Shown: positions 6,205 through 31,108 of the stretch, piece by piece
Numbering within the stretch: the first letter of the stretch is position 1
Layout: each line of letters begins with the position of its first letter
Origin: Candidatus Magasanikbacteria bacterium RIFCSPHIGHO2_02_FULL_48_18
GTDB lineage: Bacteria; Patescibacteriota; Patescibacteriia; Magasanikbacterales; UBA922
Assembly: GCA_001784285.1 (NCBI GenBank)
Contig: MFQC01000001.1
Coordinates: forward strand, 93,780 to 125,889
Reading direction: 5' to 3'
Length of the DNA: 32,110 nt
The notes under the pieces: generated by a model
The model's database searches: none
What the model was told of the DNA's origin: nothing
What the model saw: only the letters and a program-made list of their open reading frames with translations
Made by a program: the position numbers and the translations under genes

Positions 6205-6570
6205 TTAGATATTCAAATTTTCAACCGCGCTGGTATCAATATCGTCGTTCATTGAAGACGACGATGACAGAGAAGATGAGCTTGACGCTCCTTGTGACAT
6301 CGGACCTGCGCCATATCCACGGCCACCTTCCGGTTCATTAATCTTCAAATTGACACGCGCGTTGTTCTTGGCACCGACAATCTTCAAAAGGGTGCGCAGA
6401 GAACGAGCGGTTTGACCGCGACGACCGATCACATAGCCCATATCGCTTGGATTGACATCCAACGTAATAAGAACACCCCGTTCGTCCACGGTACGTGTTG
6501 CCTTGACTTCGCCAGGATTATTGACGATCGCCTTGACCACGAACTCGACAAAAGCTTGATCTGCTTCCAT
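6205..6570 (-). CDS. khpA: KH-domain RNA-binding protein (KhpA/YlqC-like) with Ser-rich C-terminal tail
   Basis: MEADQAFVEFVVKAIVNNPGEVKATRTVDERGVLITLDVNPSDMGYVIGRRGQTARSLRTLLKIVG; downstream of rpsP, a common order; ORF track opens at a TTG at 6597. Confidence 0.85.
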   Translation of the reverse strand: MEADQAFVEFVVKAIVNNPGEVKATRTVDERGVLITLDVNPSDMGYVIGRRGQTARSLRTLLKIVGAKNNARVNLKINEPEGGRGYGAGPMSQGASSSSSLSSSSSMNDDIDTSAVENLNI

Positions 6571-6776
6571 ACGTACTTCATTACTGAGTAAATACAATGA
6601 ACTGAACTGCCGACAGCACCCCGTTGGCTATCGGGGAACGCAGTTCTTTGGTGAGGCGAAGTATAGAAAAAAAAGAGACGTATGTCAACCGCAATGTGCA
6701 TAACCGCGTCCATGCACGAGGTTCTGCCGCCCTGTTGCCGTTATCACATCAAAATGATGAGCATAAAAAGAAAAAA

Positions 6777-16332: not shown

Positions 16333-16926
16333 ATGAATACACCACTCTTTCAACATCTTATCCCAACCGTTATTGAAAAAACAACATACGGCGAGCGCGC
16401 CTATGATATTTACTCCCGACTCATGAAAGATCGGATTATTTTTCTTGGAACCGGCATTAATGACGCGGTTGCCAATACGGTTATCGCACAGCTTTTGTTT
16501 TTAGAAAATCAAAGTCCGGAGAAAGACATCAAACTCTACATCAATTCTCCCGGCGGCTCGGTCACTGCGGGCATGGCCATTTATGACACCATGCAGTACA
16601 TCAAACCGGATGTCTCGACCATCTGTATCGGCATTGCCGCAAGCATGGGGTCCCTGCTTTTGGCGGCAGGCGCGCATGGCAAACGATTCTGCCTTCCAAA
16701 TTCCGAAGTGATGATCCATCAGGTGATGGGCGGCGCCGAAGGACAAGCGAGCGACATCCAAATTCACGCGGAACGAATTATCAAAATGAAGCGGCGTCTC
16801 AATGAGATGCTGGCACAGCACAGTGGCAAGCCGTTCGAACAAGTGGAAAAAGATTCGGATCGAGACCGATTTATGTCAGCAAAAGAAGCAGTGGAATATG
16901 GGCTTGTTGATAAAGTGATTGAATAA
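16333..16926 (+). CDS. clpP: ATP-dependent Clp protease proteolytic subunit
   Basis: [53 protein letters not shown]. Confidence 0.96.
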
Positions 16927-16931
16927 TATAA

Positions 16932-16957
16932 AAAAAATCCCCGAACGGGGATTTTTT
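16932..16957. terminator. Bidirectional terminator shared by clpP and the opposing putative ncRNA
   Basis: AAAAAATCCCC-GAAC-GGGGATTTTTT. Confidence 0.85.
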
Positions 16958-17296
16958 ATAGTTTCTTAGGAATACTCTTCCTAAACCTGCACCCAAGAAG
17001 GTGTGTTCTTGGATATTCACGAGCCGAAGCCTGTGTATACCGAGGACACACCCCCATGCTTGTCGTGGGCACAGAACAATATCTACTTTGGTTATAACTT
17101 CAAAATCAAGTAAATACATGTTCTATGTCTCGAATTCCCCCGAAGCATGCCAGGGGTGAGGGCACAGAGAAATGTTTGCTCAAACACGGACAAGCCGTGG
17201 AAGCAAACACTTCTCTGTCTCCAATATGATGCCCTTTCGGGCACGGCGTTATAGCCGCATATTGGTTTCACCTGTCTGATTCCTTCCCAATCAAAA
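16932..17296 (-). ncRNA. Putative structured non-coding RNA, family not recognised
   Basis: Promoter TTGACA-17-TATAGT (17331..17303, minus); 17-bp hairpin arms 17164-17180/17202-17218; three-way junction 17221-17265; shared terminator; no plausible CDS. Confidence 0.65.
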
Positions 17297-17302
17297 CAGC
17301 AT

Positions 17303-17331
17303 ACTATACCACAAAAACCCATTCTTGTCAA
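17303..17331 (-). promoter_or_regulatory. Near-consensus sigma70 promoter for the putative ncRNA
   Basis: Plus strand TGTCAA 17326-17331, ACTATA 17303-17308; 17-nt spacer. Confidence 0.75.
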
Positions 17332-17381: not shown

Positions 17382-17450
17382 CACTTCGACTCCGGAGACT
17401 CGCCCCCGCGTAAGGAGGCGAAGTGCCCTGAGCGAAGCGAGTCGAAGGGC
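17382..17450. repeat. Imperfect inverted-repeat element (cttcgactc...gagtcgaag)
   Basis: CTTCGACTC 17384-17392 and GAGTCGAAG 17439-17447; nested CACTTCG/CGAAGTG. Confidence 0.7.
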
Positions 17451-17471: not shown

Positions 17472-19496
17472 TTACTCCTCAATCGGTTCAGTTGGCGACG
17501 CTTCTGCCGAAGGACTTCCCTCCTCTACTTCCGGAAGAATCGGCTCTTCCACTTCCGGAAGAGGAGATACCTCTTCTGCCCCATCAGACGACGGCGCTTC
17601 TTCAATAGATTCAACGCCCACCAAACAAATTTTTGGAAGGGCGCGATAATGGCTCTCAAACACGCGTTCTTCTTCTTGCCCATCCGGCAATACGCGCGTG
17701 TAGACAAATGACGCGACCGCCCCGCTATGAGCGCTTTGGCAATTTTCTTCTCCGGGTTTCATGTCGGTCGTCTCAATGACGCGCGGCTCCCCCGCGGGAA
17801 TCCAGCTTTTGACGACGGGTTCGCTGTACGATCCTTTGCGGCCGTCATTGGTTCCCCACAACGTAAAAAATAAATCGCCATTTTTTTCGTTCATTTCAGT
17901 CGTCAACAGCATATATTTTCCGGTGTCATTATGAAAACGAAAATCAGGAGCAGGATCATAAATCGTGGCATCGGTTCCGGGATTATCATTGCGCGGATCA
18001 TTGTAATACCGCACCACGAGTGAATGGTTTCTGCGCTCAACAATGGGCATAGCCGCATTCATGGCGGTGCGGAACATGGTGCTCCCGATTTGGCACAAGC
18101 CCCCGCCTACTTCGGGGATAATTTTATCGCCCTTAATAACCAGCTCGGGCAGGTACCCCCCACCAATGGTGAGCGGACGAAGCGCGTTGAGCAGTGAAAA
18201 TGTTTCGTCTGGTTGAATAAGAATGCCATTCAATTTATTGACGACGGCATGGCGGATATTTTTGACGCGATTGACCGGACTGCCGGAAAAATTGGAATAC
18301 CCCACGCCCAATGCTTCTTCAATGCCCAAATCGTTCACTTCTCCGGTTTTGATATCGGGTTCTGTCTGTTCCACGACCAATCCGACGGATGTTACGACAC
18401 CCTCCTTGTCCCCACTGCGTTGCAAAAATACGGCATTGATCGCATGGTAGGTGGCAGAGATCTGAAGCGCAATACCCGGACTCGATCCTTGGAATTCTGT
18501 TACTTTTCCGGTTTCGCCAATGGAAAACTTCGCGTTTTGCGCTTCTTTATTCACCTCTGCGGCAACCGTCTGTTCTAAAAACGCACGCGTTGACGAAGCG
18601 GACAAACCAAACCCAAAATCGCCGGATTCATTTTTCTGAACATCAATCCACGCGGCGATGTGCTCCTCATCAATGACCCAGCTCCGATCCCATTTGGTAT
18701 GCGAATCCGTATACGTGATGGTCAATGAACCTTGCGACAACACAGATGGAAGACTGCTCTCAAGAGAAAGGACATCCGTTTCGATCACTGCCGGCTCTTG
18801 CACGGAAGACGCAAGCAAAATAACAGGCTGTTTGAGCGATGCCCATGCCCGGCGGGCCGATACGACGAATTCGCTCGTATCAAACACGTGCCCGACCGAC
18901 GAGGTAACCATGGTATACGAAAGAGGGTCAAGCGACTGAATAACAAGAGAGGCGTTCCGCGGTTCTTGCGTTAGGGGTTTGAGCTCGGCCTCCAGCTGAT
19001 CACTGATATATTCCTCATGAGGAACTACATACTGGAGATGCGTCTTGGTTGGAATAAGACGGCTATATGCTGTTTGATATCCTCGTACGAGGATATTCCC
19101 CTTTTTGCGATATGACAAAAAATAGTTCACTTCCTTTTGAATATCATCATCAAAAAATTCCAAAACATCCTCATCGGCAAGAACCGCCGGATACAGCGTC
19201 ATTCTTTTTTGCCCGCTGTCCCCTTTGACGACCACGCCAATGCCCTGGTCTGACAGCTTGGCATACATGCTCTCCAAATACTGCCTCAGCGCCGCTTCGT
19301 CCAAGCCGCCAATCGCCATATCGCCAATAAACACACCGGGAAGAACACGAGCAGTATACGCATTCCCATAAGCAATAAGCGCACCAAAAAAAATCCCTGC
19401 GCACACAATAAGGAATACGCCAACAAGCCAGAAACGGCGCCAGGAAATATGTTGTATGAACCAATCCTTAACCGGTGTCATATCATGCATCGACAC
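17472..19496 (-). CDS. VanW-family protein with N-terminal TM and peptidoglycan-binding-type region; acidic/Pro-rich C-tail
   Basis: VGYSNFSGSPVNRVKNIRHAVVNKLNGILIQPDETFSLLNALRPLTIGGGYLPELVIKGDKIIPEVGGGLCQIGSTMFRTAMNAAMPIVERRNHS. Confidence 0.92.
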   Translation of the reverse strand: MSMHDMTPVKDWFIQHISWRRFWLVGVFLIVCAGIFFGALIAYGNAYTARVLPGVFIGDMAIGGLDEAALRQYLESMYAKLSDQGIGVVVKGDSGQKRMTLYPAVLADEDVLEFFDDDIQKEVNYFLSYRKKGNILVRGYQTAYSRLIPTKTHLQYVVPHEEYISDQLEAELKPLTQEPRNASLVIQSLDPLSYTMVTSSVGHVFDTSEFVVSARRAWASLKQPVILLASSVQEPAVIETDVLSLESSLPSVLSQGSLTITYTDSHTKWDRSWVIDEEHIAAWIDVQKNESGDFGFGLSASSTRAFLEQTVAAEVNKEAQNAKFSIGETGKVTEFQGSSPGIALQISATYHAINAVFLQRSGDKEGVVTSVGLVVEQTEPDIKTGEVNDLGIEEALGVGYSNFSGSPVNRVKNIRHAVVNKLNGILIQPDETFSLLNALRPLTIGGGYLPELVIKGDKIIPEVGGGLCQIGSTMFRTAMNAAMPIVERRNHSLVVRYYNDPRNDNPGTDATIYDPAPDFRFHNDTGKYMLLTTEMNEKNGDLFFTLWGTNDGRKGSYSEPVVKSWIPAGEPRVIETTDMKPGEENCQSAHSGAVASFVYTRVLPDGQEEERVFESHYRALPKICLVGVESIEEAPSSDGAEEVSPLPEVEEPILPEVEEGSPSAEASPTEPIEE

Positions 19497-26251: not shown

Positions 26252-29200
26252 TCAAGCGGAAAGGGAAACCGTATTTTTTGGTTCCAGCCGTTCATTCCGG
26301 GCGATAATACCTCCGCGAGACTGCGGCGTATAATCAATAACATCTGTTTGTTTTTTATGGTGCGTCAATCGTTCATACGTGACATAATATTTGCTCGGAC
26401 CGACCAACGACGCATACCGTCCTTTTCTGTCCGTTACCTTTGTATCCACTAATTTATTATACACCGCGTCAAAAATACGAACCACCACTTTATCAAGCGG
26501 TTCTTTTTTTTCACTATCCAAAATAACCCCATATTGATTGCCAATCTTCACACGTGCCAAGCGTCGAAACAAAGAAAAAAAGAGTATATGGAGGCAAAGA
26601 AGAAAAAAAATAAAAAGATTTGGGCTGATAAGAAAAGACAAAAACGCGAGAAAAATCCCCAAACTGCTTATGGCGTACCGTACGATTTTTTGTGAATGAT
26701 CTTTGAGAATTTCTGAAGTGGATCGAACCATATCTCCAGGATCTAAAGGAATATTATAGGCAATAACGCGTCCATCGTCGAGAGCGGTGATCGTCTCTCC
26801 GTGATACAAATCCGTATACGATGAATCCTCATCCGCTGAATGCAGATGTTCGCTGAATCCCTGAAACCCCGATTTTGTAACCGCAATCGAGTATTTTCCT
26901 TTGGGCACAATAAAGAGATAACGCCCCTCCATGTCTGTGACGCGAGACTCTTGGATGGCGCCTGTTTTTTTGTTGATCAAACGCACCACGGCAAGATCAA
27001 TCGGCCGCTTGGTAAACGCGTGATACACAACCCCTGTTTTTCTCCGTTTGCGCAAACGGAGAAGCGTGAACGGTTGCGTAAAAAGGTACCGCATGTACGA
27101 TAATACCTGCGCCATGCCAAAGCCGGCCGCGACATTGGCAGCGCTCGCGACCGCGACCGCCGGAGCCACGTAGATCTGATTCGCGCTTTCCACGCGCGGA
27201 TCATTGATAATATCTTCCACAACCGGAGCAACCTTTTTCCCAATAGCGCTCATGGTTTTGGCAACAGATGGTGGAAGAAGCAAAAGAGAAGACGCGGACT
27301 GTTTCAACGTCTTTTTGTCTGTGTCTTCCTCGGTGTCAATACTATTATTTGATGAAGAAATTGGAAAAACGCCCTGTTCGCCTGTTGGAAGAGGTATGTC
27401 AGAAGAAAAATTGGAACCAGCTTGTTCTCCATTCGCGGGTTCTGAGAGCGGTTTGTTTTCCGGTTCTTGCAATGACTCTTCCTCAAGTATTTGTTGCGGT
27501 TCTTCTTTGGATTTTTCTGGCTGTTCTTCTTCGGTTTGTTCTGAAACGTTGACCGTATACGAAGCGATAGCGCTCTTGTTTCCCGCAACATCTGCCGCTT
27601 GAAGCGTAAATGTATAGGCCCCTGGAGAAAACACTACCGGAATTGATAATGACCACGTGCCGCTCAAACTCGCCGTGGTCGTATAACCCTCCAGCGCCGC
27701 AACCCACAGTCTGGGAAACCCATAAAACGCACCTTCTGAAACAGAGGATACTTGTATGGTTGGCTGAGAGAGAAAAACAGTGACGCCCGGTTCTGCCGTC
27801 CCCAAAAAAGTTACGTTCATACCGTTTCCGTTTGGATCCGGTTCAAACGAAGATTTTAAAAAAACAGGCACAGCCGGAGCAATGGTGTCGAGATAGGCGC
27901 ACGCATAGGTATCGTAGGTAAACTGTTCTGATGTGTTGCGAAATCGCGCGTGAATACATTTTTTTCCATCTTGACCTTCCAGAAAAAATGGGAGTTGAGA
28001 AACGATTGGCATAAAACTTGCATCGCCAAAATTTGGAGCAAGCATGTCTGAAGAAAGCGTCAGCGCAACCTGATCCGCGTAGGAAACGTCAAATTTTATA
28101 GTGACATCGGGTATCTTGGTAAAAGACACCGGTTCGCCATTATCCCCAACAATGGTAATCAACCCTGTCGGTTGGAGTATTTCTTCTGAACAGAGTGGAT
28201 CGGACGGCGCGCACTCCTCTTCCGGTTCTTCTTCTTCCGATTCAACGGGCGGTTGCTGGAGGGGTTCAGCGGGCGGAGCAGGCGGCACGACCGGAATGGG
28301 CACTGCCCCGCATGCATTCGTCGTTACCGTCATGTTCGACGACCAGGCCGAAACACTCCCGACGCTATTGCGCGACGTTACATGAAAGGTATAATCCGTT
28401 CCACAATTTAATGAGGAAAATGTGTAGGCGGTCGCAGACGTCCACCCGGACGTCATTGCGGTATTTGATATATGTTCAATACGATACTCCGTTCCATTTG
28501 GATTTCCATTTTGAGCCCAAGAAATCGTCGCGGCCTCCCCGGACACATCGGACGCAGTCAACACGTTTGGAACGGCAGAAAGCGTGGTTGTGGAAATTTC
28601 TGTTGTTGAGGAAACGACGTGTCCCCATGCGTCATACGTAAAAAGATTGAAATAATAGACGGTGTTTGGCGTGAGGCCGGAAAATGCCACGCTTATGTCT
28701 TCCTCATTAAAATCGTCATCACCAAGCGCAGGATCGGTGGAAGAGGTAAAGGCGCTATCTGTCACCGAAACAATCGCGACAGTATCGTAATAAATTTTAT
28801 ATTCTTGAAAATTGGCATCCGTCGATGTCACTGATGGATATACAAATGAGATGCTGGCAGGAGAAACCGTATTCAAAACAAGATCTCCTGGCACACTTGG
28901 CGCTTTGGTATCAATGAGAAATGCAGAAGAGGTTTGAAGCGTGCCATTTTCTAATCCGTCATTGGGGACAAACCGAAGAAAGACTCCCGCGTCTTCGGTG
29001 TTGGGGAGATCTGCCTCAATGTTCCATGAGATAGTGAGATTGACGGCGTAATCAGGATTTGTACCTGCACTGTCTGTATCTATTCCTGTAATGCTTCCAG
29101 TTCCAGGAATAGACGCGCCATAGTCTGCAACCACGTCTGAAATCGTTGAGCTTGTCCAGCTTGTGCCGTTGGTCGAGTGTTCGATGGTGAGGGAGGTGAT

Positions 29201-31108
29201 ATCGGCGTCGGCATCAGTGATGGTTGTTGTTACGGTGACGGTGGAGAAGGTAGTTTGGGATGGGAAACCGAGAATGGCGGTGGGGGTGGAGTTTGAATTT
29301 AATTTTGACAAAAAAATATCATCACTGCCATTATGAATGGGGTCATAACTGACTGCAGGAAAGTCTGCTCCTCTTGTGTATCCGCCGACGTACATATTTT
29401 TATTATATATACAAATAGCGTCAGCCCGTTCATTTGAAGAACCGCCAAGGTAAGAGGAACCAAGTAAAGTTCCAAGACTCGAATTTAATTTTGCGACAAA
29501 GACCTCATCGCCACCGCTATTACTTTGCCCATATACTCCTGTAGACGTTGGGAAATTAGTGCTCACGGTGTAGCCGGTGATGTAGACATTATCCGCTGAA
29601 TCCAATACCAGTGCATTCGCCTGATCCGCGTCACTGCCACCAACGAAAGTTGAAGCGGAAAGTGTGGTCAAATCCGCAGATAATTTTGAAACAAAAACAT
29701 CTTGTAATCCGGCGAGTGAATTATCATAGGCGCCAATCGTAGGAAAACTGCCACTCCATGTATATCCCGTAACGTACACACTCGATTCATCAGCAGATAG
29801 TGCCAGTGAACTTGCTCTTTCATTGCCGGAATTGCCGAGATATGTCGCAGCAGATAATGAAGAAAGACTCGAATTTAATTTTGCGACAAAGACCTCATCG
29901 CCACCGCTATTACTTTGCCCATATACTCCTGTAGACGTTGGGAAATTAGTGCTCACGGTGTAGCCGGTGATGTAGACATTGCCAGATGAGTCCAAGGCAA
30001 TAGCACCAGCTTGATCTGTGTCAGCGCCCCCGATAAACGTTGAAGCCGATAGCGTAGCCAGATCAGAAGAAAATTTTGAAACAAAAACATCCGTTACTCC
30101 ATTGAAAACTTCATCATACGCCTCTGTGGTTGTAGGAAAAATAAAACTCCATGTATACCCGGTGATGTATATGTTACCAGTCACATCACTTACCAATCCG
30201 TTTAGAACATCAGAGGATGACCCGCCCAAAAATGTCGACGCCGCCAAACTGGAAAAAGTCGGATCAATAATAACATCTCTTGACAGATCATATTGACCAA
30301 AATTTATACTCACTGTGTTATCCCTATTCACCACATACGATGCAGAAACTGAAATGTTGCTCCCGCCATCTTGTTGATATGTGTGTGGCGCTTCATGCAC
30401 AACTGTTTCAGCATCCGTTTTAAGCAATAATTTTCCTGTGTGGTCCACGGTCAATTCATCAATCCCCTCAAAGGCAAGCTGAATATCCTCAGGGTTTCCG
30501 TTTGGATGTATGACAATGTCATACTTAAGTTTGTTATCTGCAAAGAAAAAAACTGCATCAATATGTGGGTATATATTTCTAAAAATAATTTTTCCATACG
30601 TGGGAATGTCTGTCACATCCACACCCGAGACAAAATAATTCAAGGTCGCTTCTTGTTTATCCTCGGCACTAATCATCACGTCGTCTTGCTGACCTTCAAA
30701 ACGCATTTGATGCACCACCTCACGAACCAGTAACGTGGTAGTACTGGATTCTTCGCTCGCTATAGGATATTTATTTTGAAATACTATTTTTTCTTTCGTG
30801 AAATACACTGCGCCATTATTTCCTTGAAAATAATACAAAATATCTTCCGGCGCTTGCCCCTTGTTTTTGATGAAAAAAGGATTGATTTGTTCGACTTGTT
30901 GTCGTATCTTATCCAAATCTGTTTCTTCTAAATCAGTCTTTGAAAATGGCGGTACAGAATCTCTACGAAGTTTAGTATATGACAAAAACAAAAAAATAAT
31001 ACCAAAAAATAGTATTAATGCGCTCAATACCGCAGTTCGTGGTATGTATTTCATCATAGCTTCCAATCTCAGGCCAAATTGAGTATAATATAGCAGTTTA
31101 TCCGGCAT
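26252..31108 (-). CDS. Large surface protein: N-terminal TM, SBBP beta-propeller-like repeats, FN3/Ig-like domains, Pro/Glu linker, TM segments and two carboxypeptidase-regulatory-like domains
   Basis: Repeats such as ASTFIGGADTDQAGAIALDSSGNVYITGYTVSTNFPTSTGVYGQ; FN3-like blocks; C-terminal VDTKVTDRKGRYASLVGPSKYYVTY; start may be ATG near 31054-31057. Confidence 0.85.
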   Translation of the reverse strand: MPDKLLYYTQFGLRLEAMMKYIPRTAVLSALILFFGIIFLFLSYTKLRRDSVPPFSKTDLEETDLDKIRQQVEQINPFFIKNKGQAPEDILYYFQGNNGAVYFTKEKIVFQNKYPIASEESSTTTLLVREVVHQMRFEGQQDDVMISAEDKQEATLNYFVSGVDVTDIPTYGKIIFRNIYPHIDAVFFFADNKLKYDIVIHPNGNPEDIQLAFEGIDELTVDHTGKLLLKTDAETVVHEAPHTYQQDGGSNISVSASYVVNRDNTVSINFGQYDLSRDVIIDPTFSSLAASTFLGGSSSDVLNGLVSDVTGNIYITGYTWSFIFPTTTEAYDEVFNGVTDVFVSKFSSDLATLSASTFIGGADTDQAGAIALDSSGNVYITGYTVSTNFPTSTGVYGQSNSGGDEVFVAKLNSSLSSLSAATYLGNSGNERASSLALSADESSVYVTGYTWSGSFPTIGAYDNSLAGLQDVFVSKLSADLTTLSASTFVGGSDADQANALVLDSADNVYITGYTVSTNFPTSTGVYGQSNSGGDEVFVAKLNSSLGTLLGSSYLGGSSNERADAICIYNKNMYVGGYTRGADFPAVSYDPIHNGSDDIFLSKLNSNSTPTAILGFPSQTTFSTVTVTTTITDADADITSLTIEHSTNGTSWTSSTISDVVADYGASIPGTGSITGIDTDSAGTNPDYAVNLTISWNIEADLPNTEDAGVFLRFVPNDGLENGTLQTSSAFLIDTKAPSVPGDLVLNTVSPASISFVYPSVTSTDANFQEYKIYYDTVAIVSVTDSAFTSSTDPALGDDDFNEEDISVAFSGLTPNTVYYFNLFTYDAWGHVVSSTTEISTTTLSAVPNVLTASDVSGEAATISWAQNGNPNGTEYRIEHISNTAMTSGWTSATAYTFSSLNCGTDYTFHVTSRNSVGSVSAWSSNMTVTTNACGAVPIPVVPPAPPAEPLQQPPVESEEEEPEEECAPSDPLCSEEILQPTGLITIVGDNGEPVSFTKIPDVTIKFDVSYADQVALTLSSDMLAPNFGDASFMPIVSQLPFFLEGQDGKKCIHARFRNTSEQFTYDTYACAYLDTIAPAVPVFLKSSFEPDPNGNGMNVTFLGTAEPGVTVFLSQPTIQVSSVSEGAFYGFPRLWVAALEGYTTTASLSGTWSLSIPVVFSPGAYTFTLQAADVAGNKSAIASYTVNVSEQTEEEQPEKSKEEPQQILEEESLQEPENKPLSEPANGEQAGSNFSSDIPLPTGEQGVFPISSSNNSIDTEEDTDKKTLKQSASSLLLLPPSVAKTMSAIGKKVAPVVEDIINDPRVESANQIYVAPAVAVASAANVAAGFGMAQVLSYMRYLFTQPFTLLRLRKRRKTGVVYHAFTKRPIDLAVVRLINKKTGAIQESRVTDMEGRYLFIVPKGKYSIAVTKSGFQGFSEHLHSADEDSSYTDLYHGETITALDDGRVIAYNIPLDPGDMVRSTSEILKDHSQKIVRYAISSLGIFLAFLSFLISPNLFIFFLLCLHILFFSLFRRLARVKIGNQYGVILDSEKKEPLDKVVVRIFDAVYNKLVDTKVTDRKGRYASLVGPSKYYVTYERLTHHKKQTDVIDYTPQSRGGIIARNERLEPKNTVSLSA
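29474..29590. repeat. 117-bp exact direct repeat, copy 1 (within SBBP repeats)
   Basis: Identical to 29864-29980, offset 390 bp. Confidence 0.93.
29864..29980. repeat. 117-bp exact direct repeat, copy 2
   Basis: Identical to 29474-29590. Confidence 0.93.

Follow-up and report, generated by a model that had tools for sequence, protein, structure and literature searches.

A predicted structured RNA with a near-invariant bulge is encoded in most genomes of a class of Patescibacteria

Non-coding RNAs that almost every member of a bacterial class carries are few, and the well-known examples (tmRNA, RNase P RNA, SRP RNA and 6S RNA) each mark a central machine. A near-invariant internal loop set between interchangeable helices, a strong promoter and a single gene copy are traits that recall the RNA components of housekeeping ribonucleoproteins. 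Here we describe a locus with these traits in the window, the whole stretch of 32,110 nt that was analysed. It lies between clpP (16333–16926, plus strand) and vanW (17472–19496, minus strand) and is predicted to be read from the minus strand. Its 3′ part holds a conserved 91-nt module, from which we built two covariance models, R1 from the order-level module and R2 from 64 class-wide copies; the E-values of both are rough.

The gene begins with a near-consensus promoter on the minus strand (17331 to 17303), matching at 11 of 12 positions, in which a TTGACA −35 box (17326–17331) stands 17 nt from a TATAGT −10 box (17303–17308) with TG in front. It ends at a bidirectional intrinsic terminator (16932–16957) that is common to the RNA gene and clpP. 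Both signals had been called correctly in the original prediction, and together they delimit a predicted RNA of about 369 nt, running from 17296 to ~16928, with the start placed by the promoter and the 3′ end by the terminator. A hairpin, TTAGGAA/TTCCTAA (16966–16984, minus strand), sits between the module and the terminator, and many relatives within the family have a comparable hairpin downstream of the module. At 83 of 96 loci a promoter with at least 10 of 12 matches lies upstream of the module, against 7.6 expected from mononucleotide shuffling, and TTGACA is near-invariant there in relatives. A protein-coding function was rejected, as the strand has just two chance open reading frames of 79 and 82 aa and the length of the module differs by single bases among relatives. 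Elsewhere in the window, a palindromic GC-rich stretch, CGACTCCGGAGACTCG... CCCTGAGCGAAGCGAGTCGAAGGG (17383–17450), is located between vanW and the RNA promoter and resembles intergenic sequence of relatives, for example CCTGAGTGAAGCGAAGGATCC near locus L019. A predicted protein of 1618 aa (26252–31108, minus strand), which combines repeats resembling beta-propeller segments (STFLGGSSSD...NVYITGYT) with fibronectin-like parts, is probably a large surface protein. The window also encodes a KH-domain-like protein (6205–6597).

The conserved 3′ module (16985–17076, minus strand; 93.2 bits to R1) forms a rod that comprises, from the outside in, helix P1, the 10-nt bulge CGACAAGCAU, helix P2, an inner GG/CC, helix P3 and a GGC-UNCG-GCU cap. 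P1 spans 9 bp of very variable sequence and joins CTGTGCCCA (17066–17074) to TGGGTGCAG (16987–16995), with one unpaired T at 16996; eight of its nine pairs show two-sided changes and 99.5% of cells are paired. P2 spans 10 bp, the first of which is an invariant G-C pair, and joins GGGGGTGTGT (17046–17055) to ACACACCTTC (16997–17006), with two-sided changes at 7 of 10 pairs in the covariation test. The apical hairpin GGC-TTCG-GCT (17022–17031) carries a tetraloop of the UNCG type, which caps the third helix in most class members, and its G-U pair is nearly invariant (62 of 64 class-wide sequences). The one-sided bulge, CGACAAGCAT in the window (17056–17065), is shared letter for letter by 59 of 64 class-wide sequences although the flanking helices vary freely, and the UUCUUG strand opposite it is nearly invariant too. 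Because both strands are nearly invariant, an alternative CAAG/CUUG pairing within the bulge is indistinguishable from the one drawn here.

This anatomy revises the 3′ half of the original prediction, in which the stretch from 17076 to 16985 went unrecognised as a unit; the proposal of an independent gene stands, and the secondary-structure details given for that half do not. A CCAAGAA/TTCTTGG hairpin had been proposed, which keeps all seven pairs in 2 of 56 relatives (mean 4.9) and is not conserved. The supposed pseudoknot between GGTGTG and CACACC is really the nested conserved helix P2 (GGUGUGU/ACACACC), with a mean of 6.9 of 7 pairs formed. The suggested stem CACAGAACA/TGTTCTATG has about 5 nt in common with P1, at whose expense alone it could form fully.

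The helices of the module covary at both levels of divergence. In an order-level MAFFT alignment of 56 copies, which carries a hand-drawn structure and was not fitted to a covariance model, 18 of 28 pairs show two-sided changes and 96.3% of cells are paired, and 0 of 500 shuffles reach any of these values. Across 64 divergent class-wide sequences (mean identity 60%), two-sided changes appear at 22 of 28 pairs, 95.9% of cells are paired, and the covariation score is 0.636, compared with 0.201 for shuffled alignments and at most 0.147 for slid structures. The class-wide alignment, having been fitted to the model, is biased in its favour; the MAFFT alignment gives the same answer. The covariation analysis that the original prediction called for thus returns a strong signal, above controls. 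Wobble cells on the minus strand of the 64 class-wide sequences hold 239 G-U and 23 A-C combinations, and the excess of G-U identifies the minus strand as the functional one. Helices that covary above controls, a conserved promoter and strand-specific wobble are the marks of a structured non-coding RNA gene. Together with the absence of the RNA from Rfam, they uphold the idea of a structured RNA that had gone unannotated and is transcribed independently, from its own promoter to its own terminator, and support a minus-strand gene whose expression is predicted from sequence.

The whole predicted RNA has a minimum free energy of −148.7 kcal/mol. Dinucleotide-shuffled sequences lie at −101.2 ± 5.3 kcal/mol (z = −9.0), and none of 100 reaches the stability of the RNA; the plus strand of the region likewise folds stably, which its palindromic make-up would predict. 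Two elements of the original prediction recur in the 5′ domain of this minimum-energy fold on the minus strand: a long hairpin with a 17-bp stem and a CACGG/CCGTG cap (17164–17218; leader fold z = −6.2), and a three-way junction in which the stem CCAATATG/CATATTGG encloses two inner hairpins (17221–17265). The latter domain is specific to the lineage of the window, and blastn against relatives returns no match to it. Leaders are longer in the order of the window than elsewhere (median 142 nt versus 45 nt), and these grown leaders form extra hairpins, with z below −2 in 18 of 40 tested. Near-copies of the 5′ end of the module, CTGTATCCACGAC, occur in 5 of 56 leaders against 0.1 expected, and a GGRTAYAGA-like strand, the partner of CTGTATCCACGAC, in 15 of 56 against 0.4 expected. 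At loci L007, L025, L020 and L021, the leaders contain tandem near-copies of the 5′ half of the module (CTGTATCCACGAC...) upstream of it, and from their look it is as if the RNA had grown by partial duplication.

In most of the class outside the order of the window, the leader and tail pair with each other next to P1 (mean −13.7 kcal/mol, compared with −5.1 ± 2.9 kcal/mol for swapped partners), and at several loci this closing arm continues into a U-tract. The whole RNA is therefore one rod of roughly 130–180 nt. In the order of the window this pairing is lost, and extra 5′ hairpins are present. The unaided fold of six compact relatives is the rod, with the 10-nt bulge unpaired. In the genome of the window (G000:C5:16734-16770), an inverted repeat, AAAGTTTTTAC...GTAAAAACTTT, has a loop, ATGACAAGCATGGAC, in which 11 nt of the RNA core (GACAAGCATGG) recur; it could be a mimic of that core or a chance match.

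We then turn to the distribution of the gene. With the whole RNA as a blastn query, 61 of 97 relatives give some match, mostly to the 3′ third and in a minority to terminator-like sequence alone. Of 389 class genomes searched with R1, 335 contain the module, in most cases once, and they span 260 of 297 genera. Laxer filters recover 4 more among 20 R1-negative class genomes, which places presence at about 87% of sampled class genomes. About a tenth of class genomes have no match under laxer filters, some of them 98–100% complete (G003, G106, G148 and G204), so the RNA is either not strictly essential in these genomes or divergent. Class genomes G178 and G225 have no match either. In a sample of the phylum, R2 has matches in 34 of the 36 class members; among about 353 genomes of other classes a single one (G536) matches, and this match is weak, lacks the core and was rejected. 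We take the class to be ABY1 in GTDB, with Magasanikbacteria as the order of the window. In family f41 the module is present twice in tandem, with a spacing of about 130 nt at L180 and L202, and the class search gives mostly two matches per f41 genome. A pattern scan of GTDB species genomes yields 41 matches, named mostly Candidatus Magasanikbacteria or Patescibacteria, of which 40 are confirmed by R2; an Acidobacteria match (L089) fails R2 and is a chance hit. A viral origin was rejected, as viral contigs lack the pattern.

The RNA region of the window has no match in Rfam 15 at the gathering score, in line with the original prediction, which had proposed this search; at E ≤ 10 it draws only weak, inconsistent, scattered sub-threshold matches. 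Twenty class loci are equally without a match at the gathering cut-off, and in ten class loci the module has none down to E 1. Searches of open-licence papers turned up no description of such an RNA from Patescibacteria, and an earlier account may exist elsewhere. Identity with RNase P RNA was rejected, as the locus matches neither RF00010 nor RF00011 and the real gene lies at G000:C11:132118-132611 (146.4 bits). The same applies to tmRNA, where the locus has no RF00023 match and the real gene is found at G000:C11:23030-23428 (minus strand; 122.7 bits). The smpB gene (G000:C11:23524-24144, minus strand) directly adjoins this tmRNA gene. RF00013 (6S RNA) matches neither the locus nor the loci of relatives, and the whole genome of the window has no stretch that matches RF00169 or RF01854 (SRP domain IV) at E ≤ 0.001, so both identities were rejected. 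A weak 6S candidate is present elsewhere in this genome (G000:C11:101246-101424, minus strand, equivalent to L206 747-925), at 31.7 bits against a cut-off of 46.4, and adjoins two tRNA genes.

What the RNA does can be approached through its bulge. We hold it about as probable as its opposite that the locus is an undescribed, constitutively transcribed structured RNA acting in trans, a standard gene of its class, which would serve as a ribonucleoprotein scaffold or regulator with a protein or machine engaged at the CGACAAGCAU bulge. In such a model, the RNA would be abundant and long-lived. A conserved protein or machine would recognise the helix where the CGACAAGCAU bulge distorts it, and the helices flanking the bulge would be interchangeable spacers. 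Protein binding at this site is suggested by the anatomy of the rod alone. There is an even chance that this RNA, carried by most genomes of one Patescibacteria class, is the first known member of a new class of housekeeping RNAs in bacteria, serving as the RNA part of a ribonucleoprotein that recognises the invariant bulge.

The single-stranded CGACAAGCAU bulge might instead pair with target mRNAs, which would make this a trans-acting antisense small RNA. The bulge is near-invariant and exposed in predicted folds, and its complement, AUGCUUGUCG, begins with AUG and so could cover start codons. Genome-wide, however, sites complementary to the bulge are near chance (for 10-mers, 19 hits, the RNA gene itself among them, where 10.5 would be expected), and no clear start-codon pattern is seen in the flanks inspected. 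The complement has no match of at least 8 nt in E. coli 16S or 23S rRNA and one 8-nt match, within chance, in 5S rRNA. Seeds also usually occupy open loops rather than the inside of a helix with an equally conserved opposing strand, and we regard the antisense reading as unlikely, though deserving of some weight. Given a complement at chance in the genome and no such match in 16S or 23S rRNA, recognition by a protein or machine, or of a ligand, is favoured over pairing. A ligand-binding or catalytic RNA, with the invariant internal loop as aptamer or active site, is a decidedly doubtful reading: an invariant loop between freely covarying helices, together with a capped hairpin, has the classic look of an aptamer or small ribozyme, but the predicted transcript stands alone, ends in a terminator and controls no coding gene, and the gene is neither repeated nor mobile.

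Two known machines offer further readings. A functional counterpart of 6S RNA, binding RNA polymerase holoenzyme through the distorted centre of the rod, is unlikely and merits little weight. The size of the rod, its closure by leader and tail in most of the class, the strong promoter and the single copy would suit it, as would the lack of any 6S RNA above the cut-off of the Rfam model in 31 relatives. Against it stand the absence of 6S similarity, a bulge that is one-sided rather than a two-sided bubble, and the separate 31.7-bit candidate on C11 (101246–101424) of the same genome. The RNA could also stand in for SRP RNA, on the view that the classical signal recognition particle was lost from this lineage. 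Both the small and large SRP RNA models are silent in 21 relatives and the small model in 157 genomes of the phylum, compared with control genomes, where the small model matches 11 of 14 and the large 6 of 14. The Ffh M domain (PF02978) is found in 0 of 31 relatives versus 14 of 14 controls, and E. coli Ffh and FtsY queries find no match in the fully fetched genome of the window, where SmpB is found. A classical SRP role is therefore unlikely, and a replacement very improbable, as the module lacks any SRP domain IV core, the SRP losses appear phylum-wide while the RNA is class-restricted, and without Ffh there is no known protein for it to bind. The least probable reading, to which we attach almost no credence, is a cis element that belongs to clpP or vanW, either as a 3′ UTR or as an embellishment of the terminator. 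One or both of these genes adjoin the RNA at most loci, most commonly with clpP upstream on the same strand as the RNA and vanW convergent downstream. In the family of the window the RNA lies between these two genes in the opposite orientation, and at some loci the neighbours are different genes. Families differ in the downstream gene, which is mostly convergent, whereas a cis-regulatory leader would have a constant gene on the same strand. Since the orientation flips between families, the RNA is neither leader nor tail of clpP or vanW, and its own promoter at 83 of 96 loci argues the same way.

A fold and a 10-nt sequence that have hardly changed, in an RNA that matches no Rfam family, point to an important task that is so far undescribed. 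A further class-wide RNA, in reduced and mostly uncultured bacteria without detectable SRP, raises the question of which core process needs an RNA of its own. A covariance model for this RNA could annotate a currently unannotated gene in many genomes.

Among described systems, tmRNA (RF00023) and RNase P RNA (RF00010) are close in length to the RNA as it occurs in the window (about 369 nt), which has a similarly housekeeping-like distribution; it has no motifs in common with either, and both are encoded elsewhere in the same genome. Like orphan structured RNAs from comparative screens (for example PMC2864571 and PMC8632094), it was discovered by covariation and has an undescribed role; those orphans are Rfam families, whereas the window RNA matches no family of Rfam 15. 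Where 6S RNA (RF00013) has a large bubble, the window RNA has a one-sided, near-invariant 10-nt bulge and no match to the 6S model, yet both are rods closed by their 5′ and 3′ ends, distorted in mid-helix and encoded by stand-alone genes. The small SRP RNA (4.5S, RF00169) differs in its domain IV core, which the window RNA lacks along with any Rfam match, and in its partners, as no Ffh or FtsY is detected in this host. It nevertheless resembles the window RNA, whose size in most of the class is comparable, in being one long hairpin with a strong promoter, one gene copy and conserved internal loops.
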